From positions 1 to 41,650 of the IMG/VR virus record IMGVR_UViG_3300020222_000063: DNA of 41,650 nucleotides, one strand, 5' to 3'. This document shows, in pieces, positions 1-15,646 of this stretch. The stretch's first letter is position 1. Each line of letters opens with the position of its first letter. This DNA comes from a virus. Below the pieces are notes generated by a model. The model saw nothing but the letters and a program-made list of their open reading frames with translations, did no database searches and was not told the origin of the DNA. Made by a program: the position numbers and the translations under genes.

Positions 1-3
1 TAC

Positions 4-53
4 AAAAATTCCCCGTGTGTTGTGGGGGTACTAAGTACAGGAACAGCCCCCAC
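4..53 (-). terminator. Possible terminator hairpin downstream of the first gene
   Basis: A 7-bp stem (GTGGGGG at 22-28 with CCCCCAC at 47-53) lies downstream of the minus-strand gene ending at 104. A five-T run follows at 4-8 on the minus strand, but about 13 nt separate stem and T run and the loop is long. A second small hairpin, GGGG-GATCA-CCCC, lies near 86-99. It may be a terminator or just a structured trailer. Confidence 0.3.
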
Positions 54-103
54 CCGTCCATGGGGGACATACATTCCGGTGTGAGGGGGATCACCCCGTT
101 ATA

Positions 104-292
104 CTACACATTATCAGCGGGAATAAAATCGCAAACCTGATCGGTCAAGTGCTGAAACATATCAGCGCATTCGGCAACGGTTGCGTGATCGTCTTCGTCA
201 AAAGCCAAGAGGATACGGTTGTCGACCACCACAAGCGAATACATAAGAGCAATGTTGCAGAACTGATCGGTGAGGCGTTGGTTGTTGTCCAT
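104..292 (-). CDS. Small acidic protein, leaderless gene of the left island
   Basis: Encodes 62 aa rich in Asp (starts MDNNQRLTDQ, ends FIPADNV) with no recognisable domain. The start is fixed by the promoter: the -10 box ends 6 nt before the ATG, so the mRNA should begin at or next to the start codon, and no Shine-Dalgarno sequence fits. Palindrome P1 lies just upstream, with one half pointing into this gene. Short early-type genes of this kind often encode host-takeover proteins in phages, but nothing in the sequence proves that here. Confidence 0.7.
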   Translation of the reverse strand: MDNNQRLTDQFCNIALMYSLVVVDNRILLAFDEDDHATVAECADMFQHLTDQVCDFIPADNV

Positions 293-298
293 ACGTTT

Positions 299-327
299 GT
301 TGTAGCCCGCAGATCAGATCGGGTCAA
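299..327 (-). promoter_or_regulatory. Sigma70-type promoter for the leaderless gene at 292
   Basis: -35 TTGACC (322-327), 17-bp spacer containing GATCTGATC, -10 TACAAC (299-304). Six nt separate the -10 from the ATG. Confidence 0.75.
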
Positions 328-373
328 CAACAGATCAGGCGATCAGGTGATGCGGCTCACAATCTTTTTTTTC

Positions 374-433
374 TTGCAAGATTCATGCCAGCTTGCCCGA
401 GCCGGTTCGGCGGGGCTGGCACGCACCTTGCAT
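374..433. repeat. Palindrome P1 (copy 1 of 8), divergent sigma54-like boxes
   Basis: 60-bp palindrome centred between 403 and 404 (AGCC|GGTT). The right half reads TGGCACG-CACC-TTGCA on the plus strand. The left half reads TGGCATG-AATC-TTGCA on the minus strand. Both have GG-N10-GC, the sigma54 promoter spacing. A T-rich run lies immediately left. The left half points to the gene at 292; the right half points antisense into the gene at 468-815. Confidence 0.85.
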
Positions 434-445
434 GCCGCCCGCCGT

Positions 446-461
446 TGTGATTTAGATCAAG
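446..461. promoter_or_regulatory. CRP-like site next to P1
   Basis: TGTGA-TTTAGA-TCAAG is one base short of the TGTGA-N6-TCACA consensus. Its centre lies 50 bp right of the P1 centre, overlapping the start point predicted for the right-hand sigma54-like box. Confidence 0.5.
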
Positions 462-467
462 GTGTGA

Positions 468-815
468 TCACGGTCGCTTGCTGGGCGCACCCGTGGCAAC
501 CAAGCCCATACCGGGGGCAAGCGTACAGCGAAGGGCAGCACGCGCAATCTCCAAGCCCGCAGCCGTAAGTTGCAGATTATTGGGATGCCCCTTGACAAGC
601 CGACGAGCGCGCAAGCTGTCGAGGATACCGGGGCGAGCCATGAGCGGGTGACGCAGCGCAAGGAGATCAACGCTGGGGCGCAGACCGTTTTGTGCAGCGA
701 AAGCGATATCAGCGATCACAGCAACCTGACGCGGGCCACACGTCGTGGTCGAACCGTAGTTGTGGCGAGCGAGGGTTTCGATCTTCTTGCGACGAGCGGC
801 GACATTCTGCGACAT
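468..815 (-). CDS. Winged-helix-like small protein, possible DNA-binding regulator
   Basis: 115 aa, basic. The middle contains GILDSLRARRLV followed by LQLTAAGLEIARAAL, which resembles the recognition helix, wing and last helix of winged-helix regulators (an L-T-x-x-G wing motif); this is a weak resemblance. It begins MSQNV, like the protein encoded at 2564. Unlike the leaderless neighbours it has an untranslated leader of roughly 75-80 nt, and a GAGAG purine run precedes the ATG. P1 lies beyond the stop and P2 upstream of the promoter. Confidence 0.65.
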   Translation of the reverse strand: MSQNVAARRKKIETLARHNYGSTTTCGPRQVAVIADIAFAAQNGLRPSVDLLALRHPLMARPGILDSLRARRLVKGHPNNLQLTAAGLEIARAALRCTLAPGMGLVATGAPSKRP

Positions 816-898
816 TGTCTTGTCTCTCTGTTCGGGTTCTCTGACTCTGGCGCTACTTGCGGTGCCGGGGTCCGCTTACTTGTTCCGGCTATGCGCTT

Positions 899-927
899 AT
901 CGTACACGGTGATCGCTAATCCGTCAA
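899..927 (-). promoter_or_regulatory. Sigma70-type promoter for the gene at 815
   Basis: -35 TTGACG (922-927), 17-bp spacer with GCGATCACC, -10 TACGAT (899-904). It is almost identical to the plus-strand promoter at 2475-2503, including the GGATTAG that follows the -35. Confidence 0.75.
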
Positions 928-1031
928 CCATGACGAACGCGCAGATCACTTCGCCTTGTGTGCTCCGTCACACCGTCAGGTCTTGCGGGGGCTGGAATGA
1001 TCTGTTAGTGTTCGTTTTCTTTTTTCTGCCC

Positions 1032-1091
1032 TTGCAAGTTCCATGCCAAGGTGCCCGAGCCGGTTCGGCGGGGCTGGCATGCCTTTTGCAT
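1032..1091. repeat. Palindrome P2 (copy 2 of 8)
   Basis: Centre between 1061 and 1062. Right half TGGCATG-CCTT-TTGCA; left half (minus) TGGCATG-GAAC-TTGCA. A TTTTCTTTTTTC tract precedes it, shared with P3. Confidence 0.85.
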
Positions 1092-1103
1092 GCTGCCTGC
1101 CGT

Positions 1104-1119
1104 TGTGAGTTAGATCACC
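1104..1119. promoter_or_regulatory. CRP-like site next to P2
   Basis: TGTGA-GTTAGA-TCACC, centred exactly 50 bp right of the P2 centre, the same offset as at P1. Confidence 0.5.
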
Positions 1120-1384
1120 ACCAAGGAGGGAAGTCGGGCAAGGTGCGCATCAAGCGCATGTTTTCCATGTTGAGCTGCGTCACAGCGATCAAATGAGCGG
1201 CGTCACCGTCCCGGTTGTTTTCATCGGCCAGCGAGCGGTTGATCTCGCCCCGTTCGCTGTGACGCACCGCACGACGGACACGGCGCTTTGCGAAACGACG
1301 AGCACCGGGGGTCGACCAGCACATCGGGCAGAGACAAGCGGAATGACCAGCGAGGTTTGTCAAGTGTCGGGTGTTGTCGTTCAT
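1115..1384 (-). CDS. Small basic cysteine-containing protein, leaderless
   Basis: 89 aa starting MNDNTRHLTN, with CLCPMCW near residues 18-24 (a possible half metal site) and a basic stretch RRFAKRRVRRAVR after it. The start at 1384 was chosen because the -10 box TAGAGA ends 7 nt upstream; a longer reading frame to 1420 would begin inside the promoter. The promoter overlaps the interval before the end of the next gene (1417-1635), which has its own promoter. Confidence 0.65.
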   Translation of the reverse strand: MNDNTRHLTNLAGHSACLCPMCWSTPGARRFAKRRVRRAVRHSERGEINRSLADENNRDGDAAHLIAVTQLNMENMRLMRTLPDFPPWW

Positions 1385-1391
1385 GGTTTGA

Positions 1392-1420
1392 TCTCTATCA
1401 GAGTGATCGGGTTGTGTCAA
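1392..1420 (-). promoter_or_regulatory. Sigma70-type promoter for the leaderless gene at 1384
   Basis: -35 TTGACA (1415-1420), 17-bp spacer containing CCGATCACTC, -10 TAGAGA (1392-1397), then 7 nt to the ATG. Confidence 0.65.
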
Positions 1421-1635
1421 CGGACAACGAGAACGGATCGCAGCCGCCCCTTGTGACGGAAGGTGCGCGAGGCGCAGACAGCGTTGTGATCGTCATCGTC
1501 CTCGTCAGCGTGCAAGTAAGCAACGAACGCAGCGCGATCCGCAACGGGATCACTATCCGACAGATCCTCATCATCGGTCCAAACGCGGTTGGCTTCGTCC
1601 GGGGACAGCAGCGAGAGCGGGATCGTGGTGTTCAT
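1417..1635 (-). CDS. Small acidic protein, leaderless
   Basis: 72 aa from MNTTIPLSLL to LRSVLVVR, with acidic clusters (TDDEDLSDSD and HADEDDDDH) and a basic C-terminus. A longer frame back to 1833 is open only because it runs through palindrome P3, and it ignores the promoter whose -10 ends 6 nt before the chosen ATG. The charge pattern suggests nucleic-acid mimicry or protein binding; no family is recognised. Confidence 0.68.
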   Translation of the reverse strand: MNTTIPLSLLSPDEANRVWTDDEDLSDSDPVADRAAFVAYLHADEDDDDHNAVCASRTFRHKGRLRSVLVVR

Positions 1636-1641
1636 ACTGCA

Positions 1642-1670
1642 ACGGTAGCGGGAGATCACCGGGCTGTCAA
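1642..1670 (-). promoter_or_regulatory. Sigma70-type promoter for the leaderless gene at 1635
   Basis: -35 TTGACA (1665-1670), 17-bp spacer with GGTGATCTCC, -10 TACCGT (1642-1647), 6 nt to the ATG. Confidence 0.7.
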
Positions 1671-1753
1671 CCATCTCGCAGGTACTTGTTGTGTGCTGGA
1701 TCACTTGCAGTGTGCCCCTCGCGGTGTTAGTGTTCGTTTTCTTTTTTCTGCCC

Positions 1754-1813
1754 TTGCAAGTTCCATGCCAAGGTGCCCGAGCCGGTTCGGCCGGGTTGGC
1801 ACAGTTTTTGCTC
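1754..1813. repeat. Palindrome P3 (copy 3 of 8)
   Basis: Centre between 1783 and 1784. Right half TGGCACA-GTTT-TTGCT; left half (minus) TGGCATG-GAAC-TTGCA. The left half and its T-rich flank are the same as in P2. Confidence 0.85.
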
Positions 1814-1814
1814 C

Positions 1815-1830
1815 TATGACCTGAATCACA
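1815..1830. promoter_or_regulatory. CRP-like site next to P3
   Basis: TATGA-CCTGAA-TCACA, centred 39 bp right of the P3 centre. The left half-site deviates by one base. Confidence 0.4.
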
Positions 1831-1843
1831 CAATGTGCTATTG

Positions 1844-1873
1844 ACAAAAAGAAGCCCACCGATTAGGTGGGCT
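1844..1873 (-). terminator. Rho-independent terminator after the gene at 1915
   Basis: Perfect 8-bp stem AGCCCACC/GGTGGGCT (1853-1860 with 1866-1873). On the minus strand it is followed by TCTTTTTG, the classical GC stem plus T run. Confidence 0.85.
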
Positions 1874-1914
1874 CCCGTGCTATTGCTGTCCCTTGCGGGC
1901 TATGTATCTGCCGA

Positions 1915-2175
1915 TCAGTCGTTCTTATCCCAACCACGGGGAGCGACGATGCTATCGTGCGGAAACTCGCCGCAGATCGGGTGATCCAGATAGACCGACA
2001 TGTCGCGGAGGATGCGATCCGACGACCCATCATCGTACCACGAAAGTTCGTACTCCAGATCATCATCCGACAAGTCGGTGTCGCAGAAGGTGATCATGTC
2101 ATCCTTCCAGACCCACGAATCATCCATCATGTAAGCAACGGGAATGTCAGCGAGCGAGCGGGTGTTGTTTGCCAT
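1915..2175 (-). CDS. Small acidic protein, leaderless
   Basis: 86 aa, strongly acidic, starting MANNTRSLAD and containing SDDDLEYELSWYDDGSSD. No domain recognised. The ATG lies 6 nt after the -10 box of its promoter. The gene ends just before a clear terminator, so it is a self-contained transcription unit between P3 and P4. Confidence 0.75.
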   Translation of the reverse strand: MANNTRSLADIPVAYMMDDSWVWKDDMITFCDTDLSDDDLEYELSWYDDGSSDRILRDMSVYLDHPICGEFPHDSIVAPRGWDKND

Positions 2176-2181
2176 GCGCTA

Positions 2182-2210
2182 ACTGTATCGGGTGATCTCT
2201 CTGCCGTCAA
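2182..2210 (-). promoter_or_regulatory. Sigma70-type promoter for the leaderless gene at 2175
   Basis: -35 TTGACG (2205-2210), 17-bp spacer containing GAGATCACCC, -10 TACAGT (2182-2187), 6 nt to the ATG. Confidence 0.75.
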
Positions 2211-2295
2211 GTCTGGTGCCGGTGTTGTGTGTGATACAGGACACTTGCGCTGTGCGGCTGGACTTGTTAGTGTTCGCTTTTTTTCTTTTCTGCCC

Positions 2296-2355
2296 TTGCA
2301 AGATTCATGCCAGCTTTGCCGAGCCGGTTCGGGCCGGCTGGCACGGAAGTTGCAA
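2296..2355. repeat. Palindrome P4 (copy 4 of 8)
   Basis: Centre between 2325 and 2326. Both outer hexamers are TTGCAA. Right half TGGCACG-GAAG-TTGCA is a full sigma54 consensus match; left half (minus) TGGCATG-AATC-TTGCA. It lies between divergent genes (2175 leftward, 2564 rightward), the arrangement where two outward promoters would make sense. Confidence 0.88.
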
Positions 2356-2365
2356 GACCCCTGCC

Positions 2366-2381
2366 GGTGATACAGATCACA
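2366..2381. promoter_or_regulatory. CRP-like site next to P4
   Basis: GGTGA-TACAGA-TCACA, centred 48 bp right of the P4 centre. It shares the spacer TACAGA with the perfect site at 4453. Confidence 0.5.
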
Positions 2382-2474
2382 GCGGGGCGCACACTATCAG
2401 ATCACACCGGGGCAGTCAATAGGTTCCTGCGTGATAGGGCTCACAGCGTAGGGTGATCTCCACGAGCGAGACGC

Positions 2475-2503
2475 TTGACGGATTAGTGATCGCCCGGTAT
2501 GAT
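2475..2503 (+). promoter_or_regulatory. Sigma70-type promoter for the gene at 2564
   Basis: -35 TTGACG (2475-2480), 17-bp spacer with AGTGATCGCC, -10 TATGAT (2498-2503). The leader is about 55 nt, so this gene is not leaderless. Confidence 0.8.
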
Positions 2504-2563
2504 GACGCATCGCCGGTCGCGGTCCCGGTGAGACAGCAAACCAGATCGCTTGTGAGGCACGCT

Positions 2564-2962
2564 ATGTCGCAGAATGTCAATCCCGTTCGCAAGGTTCGCG
2601 TCACGTCGCAGCAAGTGGCTTTTCTCATGCTGACCGAGGGTACTGCTGCTGTGCAGAAGCTGCACAACACGCCCGGTCACGAGATCGCGGCTGCAACCTT
2701 TGACGGTGCGGTGGATCTGCTCGCTTCGCAGACCGAGGCCCGCAACGCTCTGGAAGCTCTGCGTCCGGAACTGCTGGGTGATTCGGAGCCCGGTGAGCGT
2801 GGTCGTCCCGCTGCAAAGATCGGTGAGGACCGCAACTATAAGGTCCAGCAGGTTGGCGACGGTGATCCCTTTATCCGTCTGCCCGTGAGCCTTCTCGGTG
2901 CTGTCAAGGGCGATGTGGTATCGGTCACGTTTGGCCGCGACGGGATCACGGTAAAGACTTGA
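2564..2962 (+). CDS. Paralogous island protein A, possible AbrB-like DNA-binding protein
   Basis: 132 aa, starting MSQNVNPVRK. It is closely similar along its whole length to the protein at 3816. The best conserved part is the C-terminal third (YKVQQVGDGDPFIRLPVSLL, then VKGD..VTFGRDGITV), whose R-L-P-x-x-L, K-G-D and D-G-I-T-V pattern resembles the swapped-hairpin AbrB/SpoVT fold. A linker GERGRPAAK precedes it, and the N-terminal half looks helical. The start at 2564 is chosen because the 5-prime extension would begin upstream of the promoter. With its paralog it is a candidate regulator of the island's repeated operators; that role is inference. Confidence 0.75.
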   Translation: MSQNVNPVRKVRVTSQQVAFLMLTEGTAAVQKLHNTPGHEIAAATFDGAVDLLASQTEARNALEALRPELLGDSEPGERGRPAAKIGEDRNYKVQQVGDGDPFIRLPVSLLGAVKGDVVSVTFGRDGITVKT

Positions 2963-2977
2963 AGTCAAGCGGTTAGG

Positions 2978-2993
2978 GGTGATCCGCATCACA
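2978..2993. promoter_or_regulatory. CRP-like site next to P5
   Basis: GGTGA-TCCGCA-TCACA, centred 57 bp left of the P5 centre and just after the stop of the gene at 2564. Confidence 0.4.
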
Positions 2994-3012
2994 AAACCCC
3001 CGGTGGATGGTG

Positions 3013-3072
3013 TTGCATGTTTCATGCCACCCCGTCCGAGCCGGTTCGGCAGAGTTGGCATGGGTTGTGCAT
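3013..3072. repeat. Palindrome P5 (copy 5 of 8), degenerate outer boxes
   Basis: Centre between 3042 and 3043, same 60-bp geometry. The -12-like boxes deviate: GTGCA on the right and ATGCA on the left instead of TTGCA. This is the only copy lying between converging genes (2962 rightward end, 3088 leftward end), where outward promoters would have nothing to transcribe. Confidence 0.8.
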
Positions 3073-3087
3073 GCCGTCTGCCGCTAT

Positions 3088-3267
3088 CTAATCAAACTGC
3101 CACAACCAAAGGCCCCGTTCAAGATAAGAGCAAGCCGCATGCATGGCCTGCTTTTTATCATCTTCGAACGGTGCATGACGGGCGAGGTGAAACGCCATAG
3201 CGATACACTCTTCGCGGGTTATTTCTTCGTTGTTAGGCTTTGACGGTGGGAGAAGAAAGCGAAGCAT
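3088..3267 (-). CDS. Small protein, second gene of a two-gene island operon
   Basis: 59 aa starting MLRFLLPPSK, with NNEEITREECIAMAFHLARH and a tryptophan-rich end (GLWLWQFD). The start has an AAGGA ribosome-binding sequence 7 nt upstream, unlike its leaderless upstream neighbour. The gap to that neighbour's stop is 11 nt, so it is probably cotranscribed. No family recognised. Confidence 0.65.
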   Translation of the reverse strand: MLRFLLPPSKPNNEEITREECIAMAFHLARHAPFEDDKKQAMHAACSYLERGLWLWQFD

Positions 3268-3278
3268 GGTTTATCCTT

Positions 3279-3452
3279 TCACTCGTCGTTCAGTTCATCA
3301 AGCAGATAAGCGGCATAATCGTCCATCCAATGCAGCTTTGCCATGGCCACTTCCTTTTCATCATGAGTGTAGCCTTCCGCGAGTTCCATCAGATAACCAT
3401 CGCGAATCAGGGTTTGGATGGACGGGGTCTTGCGAGCGGTGTTGTTCGGCAT
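3279..3452 (-). CDS. Small leaderless protein, first gene of a two-gene island operon
   Basis: 57 aa, starting MPNNTARKTP, with a helical acidic body (YLMELAEGYTHDEKEVAMAK) ending LLDELNDE. The -10 box TAGAAA ends 6 nt before the ATG, the same leaderless design as the genes at 292, 1635 and 2175. Confidence 0.68.
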   Translation of the reverse strand: MPNNTARKTPSIQTLIRDGYLMELAEGYTHDEKEVAMAKLHWMDDYAAYLLDELNDE

Positions 3453-3458
3453 GAGTTA

Positions 3459-3487
3459 TTTCTAACACCCGATCACACCCGCGTCAA
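3459..3487 (-). promoter_or_regulatory. Sigma70-type promoter for the leaderless gene at 3452
   Basis: -35 TTGACG (3482-3487), 17-bp spacer with GTGTGATCGG, -10 TAGAAA (3459-3464). Confidence 0.68.
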
Positions 3488-3512
3488 CAGCAGATCTATT
3501 TTTTTTCTTCCC

Positions 3513-3572
3513 TTGCACAGATCATGCCAGCTTTCCCGAACCGGTTCGGCCGGGTTGGCACGGAAGTTGCAA
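3513..3572. repeat. Palindrome P6 (copy 6 of 8)
   Basis: Centre between 3542 and 3543; the core CCGAACCGGTTCGG is a perfect palindrome. Right half TGGCACG-GAAG-TTGCA, identical to P4; left half (minus) TGGCATG-ATCT-GTGCA. A TTTTTTTTCTTCC tract lies to the left. It sits between divergent transcription units (3452 leftward, 3816 rightward). Confidence 0.88.
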
Positions 3573-3582
3573 GGGGAGCCTG

Positions 3583-3598
3583 TGTGATGCTTGTCACA
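3583..3598. promoter_or_regulatory. Perfect CRP-like site next to P6
   Basis: TGTGA-TGCTTG-TCACA matches the CRP core consensus exactly. It is centred 48 bp right of the P6 centre, the same offset as at P4. A further TTGTCACAGATCACA lies immediately right. Confidence 0.55.
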
Positions 3599-3709
3599 GC
3601 TTGTCACAGATCACAGCGGGGGCGCATACTATCAGATCGCACCCGGCCAGTCAAGGGGGATCGGTGTGACCCTGCACACGCGATCTTGTGAACTCCCGCT
3701 GCGTTAGTG

Positions 3710-3738
3710 TTGACGGATCGGGTGATCGCGGGTATGCT
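3710..3738 (+). promoter_or_regulatory. Sigma70-type promoter for the gene at 3816
   Basis: -35 TTGACG (3710-3715), 17-bp spacer with GGGTGATCGC, -10 TATGCT (3733-3738). It parallels the promoter of the paralog at 2564. Confidence 0.8.
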
Positions 3739-3815
3739 GTTCCTGTCCCGAGCGGTTGACGGCCACCGGGGACGCTAACTAACCGACCGTCGTTGCCAGA
3801 GACAAGGAAAAGACC

Positions 3816-4214
3816 ATGACCCAGAATACCGCTCCCGCTCGCAAGGTTCGCGTGACCGCCCAGACCGTTGCGTTTCTCGCCCTCACGGAGGGCACGGACG
3901 CTGTTAGCCGTCTGCATGCTACCCCCGGATCGGAGATTGCTCCCGCTACGTTTGACGCTGCCGTCGAACTTCTCGCAAGCCAGCCGGAAACCGCTGCCGC
4001 TCTTGCGGGTATGCGTGCCGATCTGTTCGGGGATGATGCGCCCGGTGAGCGTGGGCGCCCCGCTGCCAAGGTTGGCGAGTCCCGCACCTATAAGGTCCAG
4101 CAGGTTGGCGACGGTGATCCGTTCATCCGTCTGCCGGTTTCGCTCCTCGCCGCTGTCAAGGGGGGAACGGTCACGGTGACGTTCGGTCGTGACGGGATCA
4201 CCGTCCGGGCGTGA
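3816..4214 (+). CDS. Paralogous island protein B, possible AbrB-like DNA-binding protein
   Basis: 132 aa, starting MTQNTAPARK, the same length as the protein at 2564 and about two-thirds identical by eye. The stretch from YKVQQVGDGD through FIRLPVSLL is unchanged. An AAGGAAAAG ribosome-binding sequence precedes the ATG. The second half suggests a beta-rich AbrB-like DNA-binding domain (inferred). The two copies have equivalent promoters and flank the P5-P6 segment, suggesting duplication of promoter and gene together. Confidence 0.78.
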   Translation: MTQNTAPARKVRVTAQTVAFLALTEGTDAVSRLHATPGSEIAPATFDAAVELLASQPETAAALAGMRADLFGDDAPGERGRPAAKVGESRTYKVQQVGDGDPFIRLPVSLLAAVKGGTVTVTFGRDGITVRA

Positions 4215-4221
4215 TCTGCGG

Positions 4222-4251
4222 TTGACAAGCCGATAGCCCCCCGGCTACAAT
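4222..4251 (+). promoter_or_regulatory. Sigma70-type promoter for a candidate small RNA
   Basis: -35 TTGACA (4222-4227), 18-bp spacer, -10 TACAAT (4246-4251), beginning 8 nt after the stop of the gene at 3816. It lacks the GTGATC spacer motif of the other island promoters. Confidence 0.75.
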
Positions 4252-4321
4252 AGGGGGCACGGTAAGCCGGTTTAGCTTCCCCCGGCGATGTAGCAACGGA
4301 AGCCAGAAACGAGGAGTCGCG

Positions 4322-4381
4322 GTGATCAGACTGTACGATTTAGGGGTGCGGCTTGCCGCCGCCAACCCATGCGACCGTTAG
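4322..4381 (+). CDS. Possible 19-aa peptide inside the candidate small RNA
   Basis: GTG start with GAGGAG 5 nt upstream; the peptide is MIRLYDLGVRLAAANPCDR. The coding sequence overlaps a GC-rich hairpin. The reading frame may be fortuitous. Confidence 0.35.
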   Translation: MIRLYDLGVRLAAANPCDR

Positions 4382-4407
4382 GGTCAGTGTCGCATGATGC
4401 TTAGGGG

Positions 4408-4438
4408 AACCCGGCCAGAGTGTGCCGGGTTTCTGTTT
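4408..4438 (+). terminator. Rho-independent terminator of the candidate small RNA
   Basis: Perfect 8-bp stem AACCCGGC/GCCGGGTT with an 8-nt loop, followed by TCTGTTTGT. The T run is interrupted but the stem is strong. Confidence 0.75.
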
Positions 4439-4452
4439 GTCAAGTGGGGATG

Positions 4453-4468
4453 TGTGATACAGATCACA
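4453..4468. promoter_or_regulatory. Perfect CRP-like site next to P7
   Basis: TGTGA-TACAGA-TCACA, an exact core match, centred 50 bp left of the P7 centre. The offset equals that at P1 and P2 but on the opposite side. Confidence 0.55.
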
Positions 4469-4480
4469 ACGGCAGGAACC

Positions 4481-4540
4481 TAGCAAGTTCCATGCCAGCC
4501 CCGCCGAGCCGGTTCGCCAAAGTTGGCACGGGTCTTGCAA
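4481..4540. repeat. Palindrome P7 (copy 7 of 8)
   Basis: Centre between 4510 and 4511. Right half TGGCACG-GGTC-TTGCA (full sigma54 consensus); left half (minus) TGGCATG-GAAC-TTGCT. No gene is evident on either side; P8 begins 25 bp later. Confidence 0.85.
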
Positions 4541-4565
4541 GTCAACCGGTCATCGGTTTACTGTA

Positions 4566-4625
4566 TAGCACGAACCATGCCAAGGCTCACAAACCGGTTC
4601 GGCCACCTTGGCACGATCTTTGCAA
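4566..4625. repeat. Palindrome P8 (copy 8 of 8)
   Basis: Centre between 4595 and 4596 (AAACC|GGTT). Right half TGGCACG-ATCT-TTGCA; left half (minus) TGGCATG-GTTC-GTGCT. A TTTTTTT run lies to the right (4629-4635), so here the T-tract is on the opposite side from P1-P4 and P6. Confidence 0.85.
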
Positions 4626-4645
4626 GCGTTTTTTTCATGATACAC

Positions 4646-4661
4646 CGTGACCCGGATCACG
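4646..4661. promoter_or_regulatory. CRP-like palindrome next to P8
   Basis: CGTGA-CCCGGA-TCACG, a self-complementary variant of the CRP-like sites, centred 58 bp right of the P8 centre. Confidence 0.4.
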
Positions 4662-4671
4662 CGATCCCCCA

Positions 4672-4700
4672 TTGACAGCATGGTGGGCATGCGTTATGCT
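4672..4700 (+). promoter_or_regulatory. Strong sigma70-type promoter facing the gene-free junction
   Basis: -35 TTGACA (4672-4677), 17-bp spacer, -10 TATGCT (4695-4700). No convincing gene follows on the plus strand, so the product could be an untranslated RNA. Confidence 0.65.
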
Positions 4701-4958
4701 ATGCGATCCCCCGGGTGATCCCTGTGTGACCGGGCGCACACCGGCAATCAACCGACTGGGTGGTTGTTTAGCTTGTATAGTGTATGATGAACCGGTGATT
4801 ATCTATTGTGTATAGTGTATAGCGGGAGATAGGTGAATATCTCTCTATACTATACTCTATACCTTCTTTATGTTCTTTATATATCCTATACTGGATATAC
4901 TATTTCTATATCTGCCGGATTTTCTGTATATCAACCGCTAGATATAGGGCAATCGACC

Positions 4959-4987
4959 AGTATAGCGCGTTGGGCCGATCATGTCAA
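4959..4987 (-). promoter_or_regulatory. Strong minus-strand promoter in the junction
   Basis: -35 TTGACA (4982-4987), 17-bp spacer with TGATCGGCCC, -10 TATACT (4959-4964). No gene with a plausible start follows leftward. Confidence 0.65.
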
Positions 4988-14821: not shown

Positions 14822-15646
14822 CTATGGAATAGAATTAAAAATATGAGCGATAACGTCTGCCGTCCAACCATTTCCAATCATCTTATAACGATGACAGTCG
14901 GCAACGTTGCTGGTATAGTTATCTGGAATAGTTTGGAGTCGTTCACATTCAATTGGAGTTAGACGACGCTTGAAACCAAGATCAACATAAATACCATCAG
15001 TTGGTTGTTTGTAATAACCAGCAATAAGTGTTCCACACTTGTCTTGGGTTCCATCATAAAAGAAACCACGACCACGCTCTGTATTCATAACCCTATCAAT
15101 CTTGGCTTGTGAAAGGGCATATTTCCGATCAGCATTTAGTTCAAGAATATCTTTCATCTTGATATTTTTATCGTCTGGCTGATTGATGTTTGGAATATTA
15201 GTCCAATACAAACGAGGACGATTCTGTGCTGATACAAGTTTACTGTTGATTTCAATAGGTTGAACACCCAATTCATCAGAAATAATATCTCGCCATTCCC
15301 GCTTCATCTTTACATTTTCGAGAAGAAAATAGGTTGGTTTAATTTCTTTCAAGATACGGGCATATTCCCAAAACAAACCACTCTTACCATTAAATCCTGT
15401 TCCACTTCCAGCAGTTGAAAATGACTGGCAAGGACTTCCACCAATAAGCAAATCAATATTGGGAAGATTAGAGGAATTAATATCTTTTACATCTCCAAGG
15501 TGAATGGTCTTTGGATAGTTATGTTTAGCAACTTTGATTGCGTGTGAATCAATTTCTGCTGCGTAATAATCGGTGTATTCAATACCAGCACGATTAAGAG
15601 CAACTTGACCGCAACTCATACCATCAAAAAGACTTAAAACTTTCAT
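14822..15646 (-). CDS. DNA C5-cytosine methyltransferase
   Basis: 274 aa, a compact C5-MTase. Motif I SLFDGMSCGQ (5-14), motif IV GGSPCQSFS with catalytic C73, motif VI ENV near 111, motif VIII QNRPRLYW near 150, and motif X GNGWTADVI near 259. It transfers a methyl group from SAM to C5 of cytosine in a specific site; the target domain between motifs VIII and IX is short. No restriction enzyme lies nearby, so it is probably an orphan phage enzyme used for host-restriction evasion or gene control (inference). Confidence 0.93.
   Translation of the reverse strand: MKVLSLFDGMSCGQVALNRAGIEYTDYYAAEIDSHAIKVAKHNYPKTIHLGDVKDINSSNLPNIDLLIGGSPCQSFSTAGSGTGFNGKSGLFWEYARILKEIKPTYFLLENVKMKREWRDIISDELGVQPIEINSKLVSAQNRPRLYWTNIPNINQPDDKNIKMKDILELNADRKYALSQAKIDRVMNTERGRGFFYDGTQDKCGTLIAGYYKQPTDGIYVDLGFKRRLTPIECERLQTIPDNYTSNVADCHRYKMIGNGWTADVIAHIFNSIP

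Follow-up and report, generated by a model that had tools for sequence, protein, structure and literature searches.

What binds eight 60-bp palindromes that are spread through 4.3 kb of a virus genome, and what purpose might such binding serve? The elements lie in the IMG/VR virus record IMGVR_UViG_3300020222_000063, of which positions 1 to 41,650 were analyzed here (this whole stretch of 41,650 nucleotides is referred to as the window). Each palindrome appears to consist of two full -24/-12 sites of the sigma54 type, placed back to back around a short, operator-like central palindrome, and the ligand would most likely be sigma54 in the form of the RNA polymerase holoenzyme. The sites themselves can be read directly from the DNA, as can their symmetry, their conservation, their restriction to one part of the genome and their recurrence; as to function, we tentatively favor docking of host sigma54 holoenzyme on either side of a central operator, where it would be poised or sequestered.

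Architecture and sigma54-type cores of the palindromes

All eight copies reported in a preliminary description of this DNA, made from the letters alone, were recovered at the same positions and with the same centers, as was the gene context described there for P5 and for P7-P8, which have no adjacent protein gene:

374-433, palindrome P1: half 375-390 (minus strand), center CGAGCCGGTTCG, half 417-432 (plus strand)
1032-1091, palindrome P2: halves 1033-1048 (minus) and 1075-1090 (plus)
1754-1813, palindrome P3: halves 1755-1770 (minus) and 1797-1812 (plus)
2296-2355, palindrome P4: halves 2297-2312 (minus) and 2339-2354 (plus); between divergent genes
3013-3072, palindrome P5: halves 3014-3029 (minus) and 3056-3071 (plus); between converging genes
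3513-3572, palindrome P6: halves 3514-3529 (minus) and 3556-3571 (plus); between divergent genes
4481-4540, palindrome P7: halves 4482-4497 (minus) and 4524-4539 (plus)
4566-4625, palindrome P8: halves 4567-4582 (minus) and 4609-4624 (plus); 85 bp from P7

The placement of the parts is strict. Every element consists of a left 16-mer, 26 bp and a right 16-mer, in agreement with the fixed geometry noted previously, and reads TTGCA-type box, N5-6, ATGCCA, N7, CRARCCGGTTCG, N7, TGGCAY, N5, TTGCA-type box, where CRARCCGGTTCG, the center of the element, is itself a short palindrome. The motif centers of the two halves of one element are 42 bp apart and the predicted starts 79 bp apart. The GG-N10-GC spacing that had been attributed to every half is present in all 16, and the longer consensus TGGCAY-N5-TTGCA, said to fit most halves, is matched exactly by 10; the other six deviate solely at one or both end bases of the TTGCA box, and all 16 fit TGGCAY-N6-TGCW.

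With up to two mismatches allowed, TGGCAYGN4TTGCA has 24 matches in the window against 5.3 expected, the maximum in 100 shuffles being 11, and its reversed form has no exact match there. In addition, a sigma54 matrix of 17 positions, derived from 42 intergenic chromatin immunoprecipitation (ChIP) sites of Escherichia coli tabulated in PMC4591121, was scored at every position of each genome (about 83,000 positions in the window). Ranks 1-14, 16 and 17 all fall to the 16 halves. Their scores, 14.6-21.5, compare with a median of 16.3 and a range of 8.8-21.4 for the E. coli sites themselves, and the majority lie above the score of the median E. coli site. The pattern counts against shuffles and these ranks rule out a chance origin of the halves.

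A search of relatives, as proposed in the preliminary description, yielded three related viral records with further elements, namely, G001 (82.4 kb, seven elements), G004 (36.4 kb, nine elements) and an 18-kb fragment of a related virus (one element), so that the full set, including the window, comprises 25 elements and 50 halves. The top 19 matrix positions in G004 are its 18 halves and one solitary half; in G001, 14 halves and a solitary half take most of the top ranks. All 50 halves have GG-N10-GC, with GG at -24, TGC at -12 and rigid spacing, and TGGCA and TGC are constant across the set save for one base. Variation is found at -21 (C or T), -20 (G in most halves), -15 (T in roughly three of four halves) and -11 (A or T), which is what sigma54 sites are expected to tolerate. 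TGGCA strictly precedes TTGCA, and none of the 50 halves has the two words in the opposite order. The sigma54-like reading of each half is, at the level of sequence, strongly supported. Thus, of the earlier term sigma54-like promoters, the first part stands, on the ChIP matrix and the conservation of the core, whereas a working promoter was not borne out, and the evidence weighed below speaks against it.

Conservation, genomic setting and recurrence

Seven element pairs were assigned as orthologous between G001 and G004. The core positions of their halves differ at only 1 of 112 sites, compared with 19 of 84 non-core positions inside the halves, 9 of 56 in the center, 47 of 126 in the spacers and 278 of 686 in the ungapped flank, the last figure being inflated by indels. 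The conservation covers both halves of an element. Purifying selection that would act on exactly the -24/-12 core is strongly supported by this comparison.

The array sits in a GC-rich island of about 5 kb (window 1-4950, approximately 56% GC) that holds all eight elements and is surrounded by a phage genome of 28-44% GC. A second IMG/VR record of 82.6 kb is 99.94% identical to the window over its positions 10640-52289 and shows DNA of about 32% GC on both flanks of the island. An assembly chimera is ruled out, given that AT-rich phage DNA borders the island on both sides in this longer record and that syntenic relatives have the island as well; where the island can be aligned, G001 and G004 are about 67-75% identical to the window. 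The rest of the genome is that of a large, uncultivated phage, encoding a GroEL-like chaperonin, a MoxR/VWA pair, a head protease, ribonucleotide reductase, DnaB helicase, a C5 methylase and four tRNAs. A close pair of elements akin to P7-P8 is found in G004 (22562 and 22646), there with 27-bp spacing. Separately, a solitary, perfect sigma54-like half with neither center nor partner lies shortly upstream of a possible sigma70 -10 box in G001 (80347) and in G004 (20034; locus L017).

Isolated phages and plasmids yielded no relative. A cellular origin of the array was considered and rejected: in bacterial genome contigs, the pattern of center plus arms has single matches only, which were discounted because their number is about that expected by chance for 17 specified bases in 257 Gb.

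Inverted pairs of sigma54-like halves in other phages point to a wider phenomenon. A spacing-tolerant divergent pattern was found in 60 viral stretches, many of them with clusters of further sigma54-like halves, and the convergent pattern TGGCAN6TTGCA-N0-8-TGCAAN6TGCCA in at least 120. A control in which the words were exchanged within each half of the convergent pattern had no matches, and one with N5 in place of N6 had two. Among the matches listed, distinct convergent pairs almost all have 2-5 bp between the boxes, a distance that places each predicted start inside the partner site; such pairs would be hard to square with productive promoters and are easier to understand if occupancy as such is what matters. 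Also among the matches listed, 84 loci carry at least three halves after removal of near-duplicates. In nine array-bearing records, the halves are mostly concentrated in one locus (for example, a 395-kb phage has 14 halves in a stretch of 14.3 kb, and a 44-kb phage has 10 in 0.5 kb), and the reversed pattern has no matches in these nine. Gene calling around the arrays of huge phages is too crude to place these sites as intergenic.

One group of contigs (locus L207 of record G005, positions 3410-3705, and related contigs) carries a dense alternating array of 11 sigma54-like sites, with two DnaA boxes inside, directly upstream of terminase, portal and capsid genes. For DnaA, CRP and IHF sites in the arrays of other phages, no signal was clearly beyond controls or an effect of intergenic composition. 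Isolated relatives of one array-bearing phage, identified by terminase, had no arrays, and transfer of a host assignment by that route failed. Inverted arrays were likewise absent from 299 bacterial genomes (about 1 Gb), a volume too small relative to IMG/VR for a claim of phage specificity.

Candidate functions of the palindromes

Non-productive docking and productive promotion, the two foremost readings, share the claim that host sigma54 is the ligand of the palindromes, which we consider probable. Sigma54 holoenzyme binds DNA stably and is inactive without an enhancer-binding ATPase. Neither Sigma54_DBD (RpoN) nor Sigma54_activat was matched in any of 14 phage records, of which five belong to this group and nine do not (some represent the same virus, and records of 354-481 kb are included), and the control genomes matched; this absence argues against simple promoters, but is suggestive only because the phage records are fragments. 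Given that the holoenzyme needs the ATPase and that none was found in these records, the palindromes would most likely hold inactive closed complexes. Such complexes could be poised or blocking, beside the sigma70-type promoters of the island, and the copies building up during replication would form a sink for sigma54. How far the sites are occupied could depend on a small DNA-binding protein of the phage that recognizes the central palindrome, perhaps the winged-helix protein encoded at 468-815. Most sites bound by E. coli sigma54 carry holoenzyme that is transcriptionally inactive (PMC4591121).

In support of docking, we count the matrix ranks, the conservation of the core, scores that are independent of facing and the leaderless sigma70-type promoters (both described below), and the convergent overlapping pairs of other phages. 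Binding, titration and mostly non-productive occupancy are predicted from the sites, and a role of the center is presumed. Several points weigh against docking. That the host of the phage has sigma54 is itself an inference. A palindrome at the center and a spacing of exactly 26 bp would imply a third player, which a pure sink does not need. The elements lie between genes, and roughly one in two halves faces a gene. Finally, the missing ATPase could be supplied by host activators, or activator genes could lie elsewhere in the phage genomes, the records being fragments. An extension to other viruses is possible, albeit less likely: diverse phages may carry dedicated arrays of inverted, partly overlapping sigma54 sites as traps rather than promoters, where inactive closed complexes would mute the sigma54 responses of the host during infection, and the palindrome of the window would be a refined form of such a trap, in which a phage protein bound to the central operator would control occupancy.

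The main rival explanation, which we consider somewhat unlikely, is that the halves are productive divergent sigma54 promoters that fire outward when a host enhancer-binding protein is active. The island genes would then gain a second transcript linked to stress or nitrogen, and the central palindrome, which lies some 40 bp upstream of either start, would be a shared operator choosing the direction. The strength of the -24/-12 sites, their intergenic location and the position of P4 and P6 between divergent genes all fit this explanation, genes 815, 2564 and 3816 have leaders and ribosome-binding sites that could serve transcripts from the halves facing them, and E. coli has natural divergent sigma54 pairs at hycA/hypA and zraP/zraS (PMC4591121, Table 1). 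However, 7 of the 16 window halves face a gene start, and the others, which face a gene end or nothing, score equally well (Mann-Whitney p=0.34, n=16, a weak test); P5 and P7-P8 have no gene to serve; and with motif centers 42 bp apart, two holoenzymes probably cannot act together.

The arrangement of the island genes bears on the same issue. Promoters of the sigma70 type, TTGAC-N17-TANNNT, have 14 matches against 3.5 in shuffles, and about a dozen lie in the island. For five of the nine island genes (starts 292, 1384, 1635, 2175 and 3452, all on the minus strand), the predicted promoter start is at or beside the ATG. Shine-Dalgarno pairing in these leaderless-type genes is weak or nil (0 to -3.8 kcal/mol), compared with a mean of -6.1 kcal/mol for 20 genes of the AT-rich part, and comparable leaderless layouts are found in both G001 and G004. 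The promoters of the leaderless genes have the form TTGACG/A-N17-(GC)TANNNT, unlike the Shine-Dalgarno-led genes of the AT-rich part; this form recalls alphaproteobacterial promoters, which we take to be a hint to the host. A longer sigma54 transcript of leaderless genes would probably be translated poorly, and of the seven window halves that face a gene, four are directed at genes of this kind, again contrary to productive promotion. Examples of the promoters are:

2475-2503, plus strand: sigma70-type promoter TTGACG-N17-TATGAT, upstream of gene 2564
1642-1670, minus strand: sigma70-type promoter TTGACA-N17-TACCGT, with a start coinciding with the ATG at 1635 of leaderless gene 1417-1635
2182-2210, minus strand: sigma70-type promoter TTGACG-N17-TACAGT, with a start coinciding with the ATG at 2175 of leaderless gene 1915-2175

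Unlikely is another DNA-binding protein, of the phage or the host, that would read sites of the TGGCAYN5TTGCA type as operators, stoperators or organizing sites. TGGCA-N6-TTGCA also contains TKGCA twice in direct orientation, spaced by about one helical turn, which is the site geometry of OmpR/PhoB-type proteins. That geometry, the winged-helix protein encoded in the island and the occurrence of the motif in inverted and convergent arrays of many phages, which would suit a dimeric regulator, lend weight to such a protein. On the other side, the word order is strict, as shown by the word-swapped control and by the 50 halves, the tolerated positions match sigma54, and the E. coli sigma54 matrix finds the halves essentially alone. 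No gene common to the diverse phages was identified, no systematic search for one having been made.

Far less probable is a set of partition, replication or packaging sites (parS, iterons or a cos/pac region). A multi-copy array in one locus, the lack of a gene adjacent to P7-P8, and the array of one phage group that lies directly upstream of terminase genes and includes DnaA boxes could be explained in this way. Nevertheless, partition and replication, like stoperators, do not account for the -24/-12 fit; the nine island proteins searched against Pfam included no ParA/ParB-type match; and the enrichment of DnaA boxes near arrays, 2.4-fold, does not exceed the 3.0-fold enrichment of their reversed control. 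The idea that the palindromes encode RNA hairpins, as terminators or processing sites, might be prompted by the length of the palindrome (60 bp) and by the T-tracts that flank most copies on one side, but is contradicted by the absence of matching changes between the arms: the complementarity of left and right spacers is 0.34 within and 0.44 between elements, that of spacers and arms does not rise above the between-element level, for rightward transcripts the T-tract is upstream of the stem rather than downstream, and Rfam gave only tRNA matches. Since the spacers are not complementary, the palindrome is a protein site on DNA and not an RNA hairpin.

Other island features and known systems

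The nine island proteins had no match above the cut-off in Pfam. Further features of the island are the following:

468-815, minus strand: winged-helix protein of 115 aa, predicted from alignment, an AlphaFold2 (AF2) model (predicted local distance difference test score, pLDDT, 68) and Foldseek
2564-2962, plus strand: 132-aa paralog family, copy 1
3816-4214, plus strand: 132-aa paralog family, copy 2
4222-4440, plus strand: candidate small RNA, just left of P7-P8, proposed from promoter and sequence

The model of the 468-815 protein is a winged helix with MarR/DtxR-type folds as Foldseek neighbors (best E 0.017), and the protein is a plausible candidate ligand of the central palindrome CGAACCGGTTCG. 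The 132-aa paralogs are likewise duplicated in the relatives; no sequence match was found beyond this phage group, and the structure model, with a C-terminal part of low confidence, gave no fold match. The candidate small RNA has a strong sigma70-type promoter, TTGACA-N18-TACAAT (4222-4251), and a stem followed by a T-rich stretch near 4400-4440, with no match in Rfam.

Overall, the island carries many host-type regulatory signals. The CRP-type dyad GTGA-N6-TCAC has 9, 6 and 9 copies in the three islands and none in the remaining DNA examined, and GTGA/TCAC at other spacings from 0 to 15 is hardly present in the islands. The nine dyads of the window span 81-4661 (for example, 1104-1119, 2366-2381 and 4453-4468), several of them 48-50 bp from a palindrome center. 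GATC is about threefold in excess in the islands (136 occurrences in window 1-4960 against 48 expected, 2.9-fold, both strands counted) and has a normal frequency outside them; the spacers of most N17 sigma70-type promoters that precede island genes contain GATC, often as GTGATC. In the AT-rich DNA of the window and of G001, CCGG is 2-4 fold over expectation. Outside the elements, AACCGGTT has 12 copies in G001, and the phage C5 methylase gene lies at window 14822-15646; as isolated operators, these copies of AACCGGTT were rejected, as they appear to be part of the general CCGG excess in an AT-rich genome.

In our literature searches, no comparable phage element came up, nor did any description of phages with arrays of sigma54 sites. 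Phages hijack or inhibit sigma70-type RNA polymerase by means of proteins. The arrays suggest that phages engage or absorb host sigma54 in a manner not described before; if host sigma54 binds them, they would be either a host-coupled switch of phage genes or a DNA-only sequestration of a global regulator of stress and nitrogen responses, and their sequence signature is easily searched in other phages.

With bacterial sigma54 promoters and silent sites (PMC4591121; PMC3844500), the phage halves share TGGCAY-N5-TTGCW and the invariant GG and TGC. In contrast to the bacterial sites, they form exact back-to-back pairs, eight in 4.3 kb, in a phage for which no enhancer-binding protein gene was found. 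The E. coli zraP/zraS and hycA/hypA regions likewise have two outward-facing sigma54 sites in one intergenic region, with motif centers 154 and 128 bp apart, respectively (PMC4591121), but these are single loci, whereas the phage elements have 42 bp between motif centers, a fixed central palindrome and an arrangement in arrays. Mycobacteriophage stoperators and other operator arrays of phage repressors resemble the palindromes in the many dispersed copies of a short intergenic site. Stoperators are single short sites read by a phage repressor, whereas the phage half-site appears to be of the host sigma-factor type, with no cognate repressor known. Transcription-factor decoys, such as the synthetic ones in E. 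coli (PMC7826281), are likewise clusters of sites that need no gene and could lower the level of the free factor; compared with these, the phage arrays are natural, phage-borne and symmetric, and titration by them is predicted.

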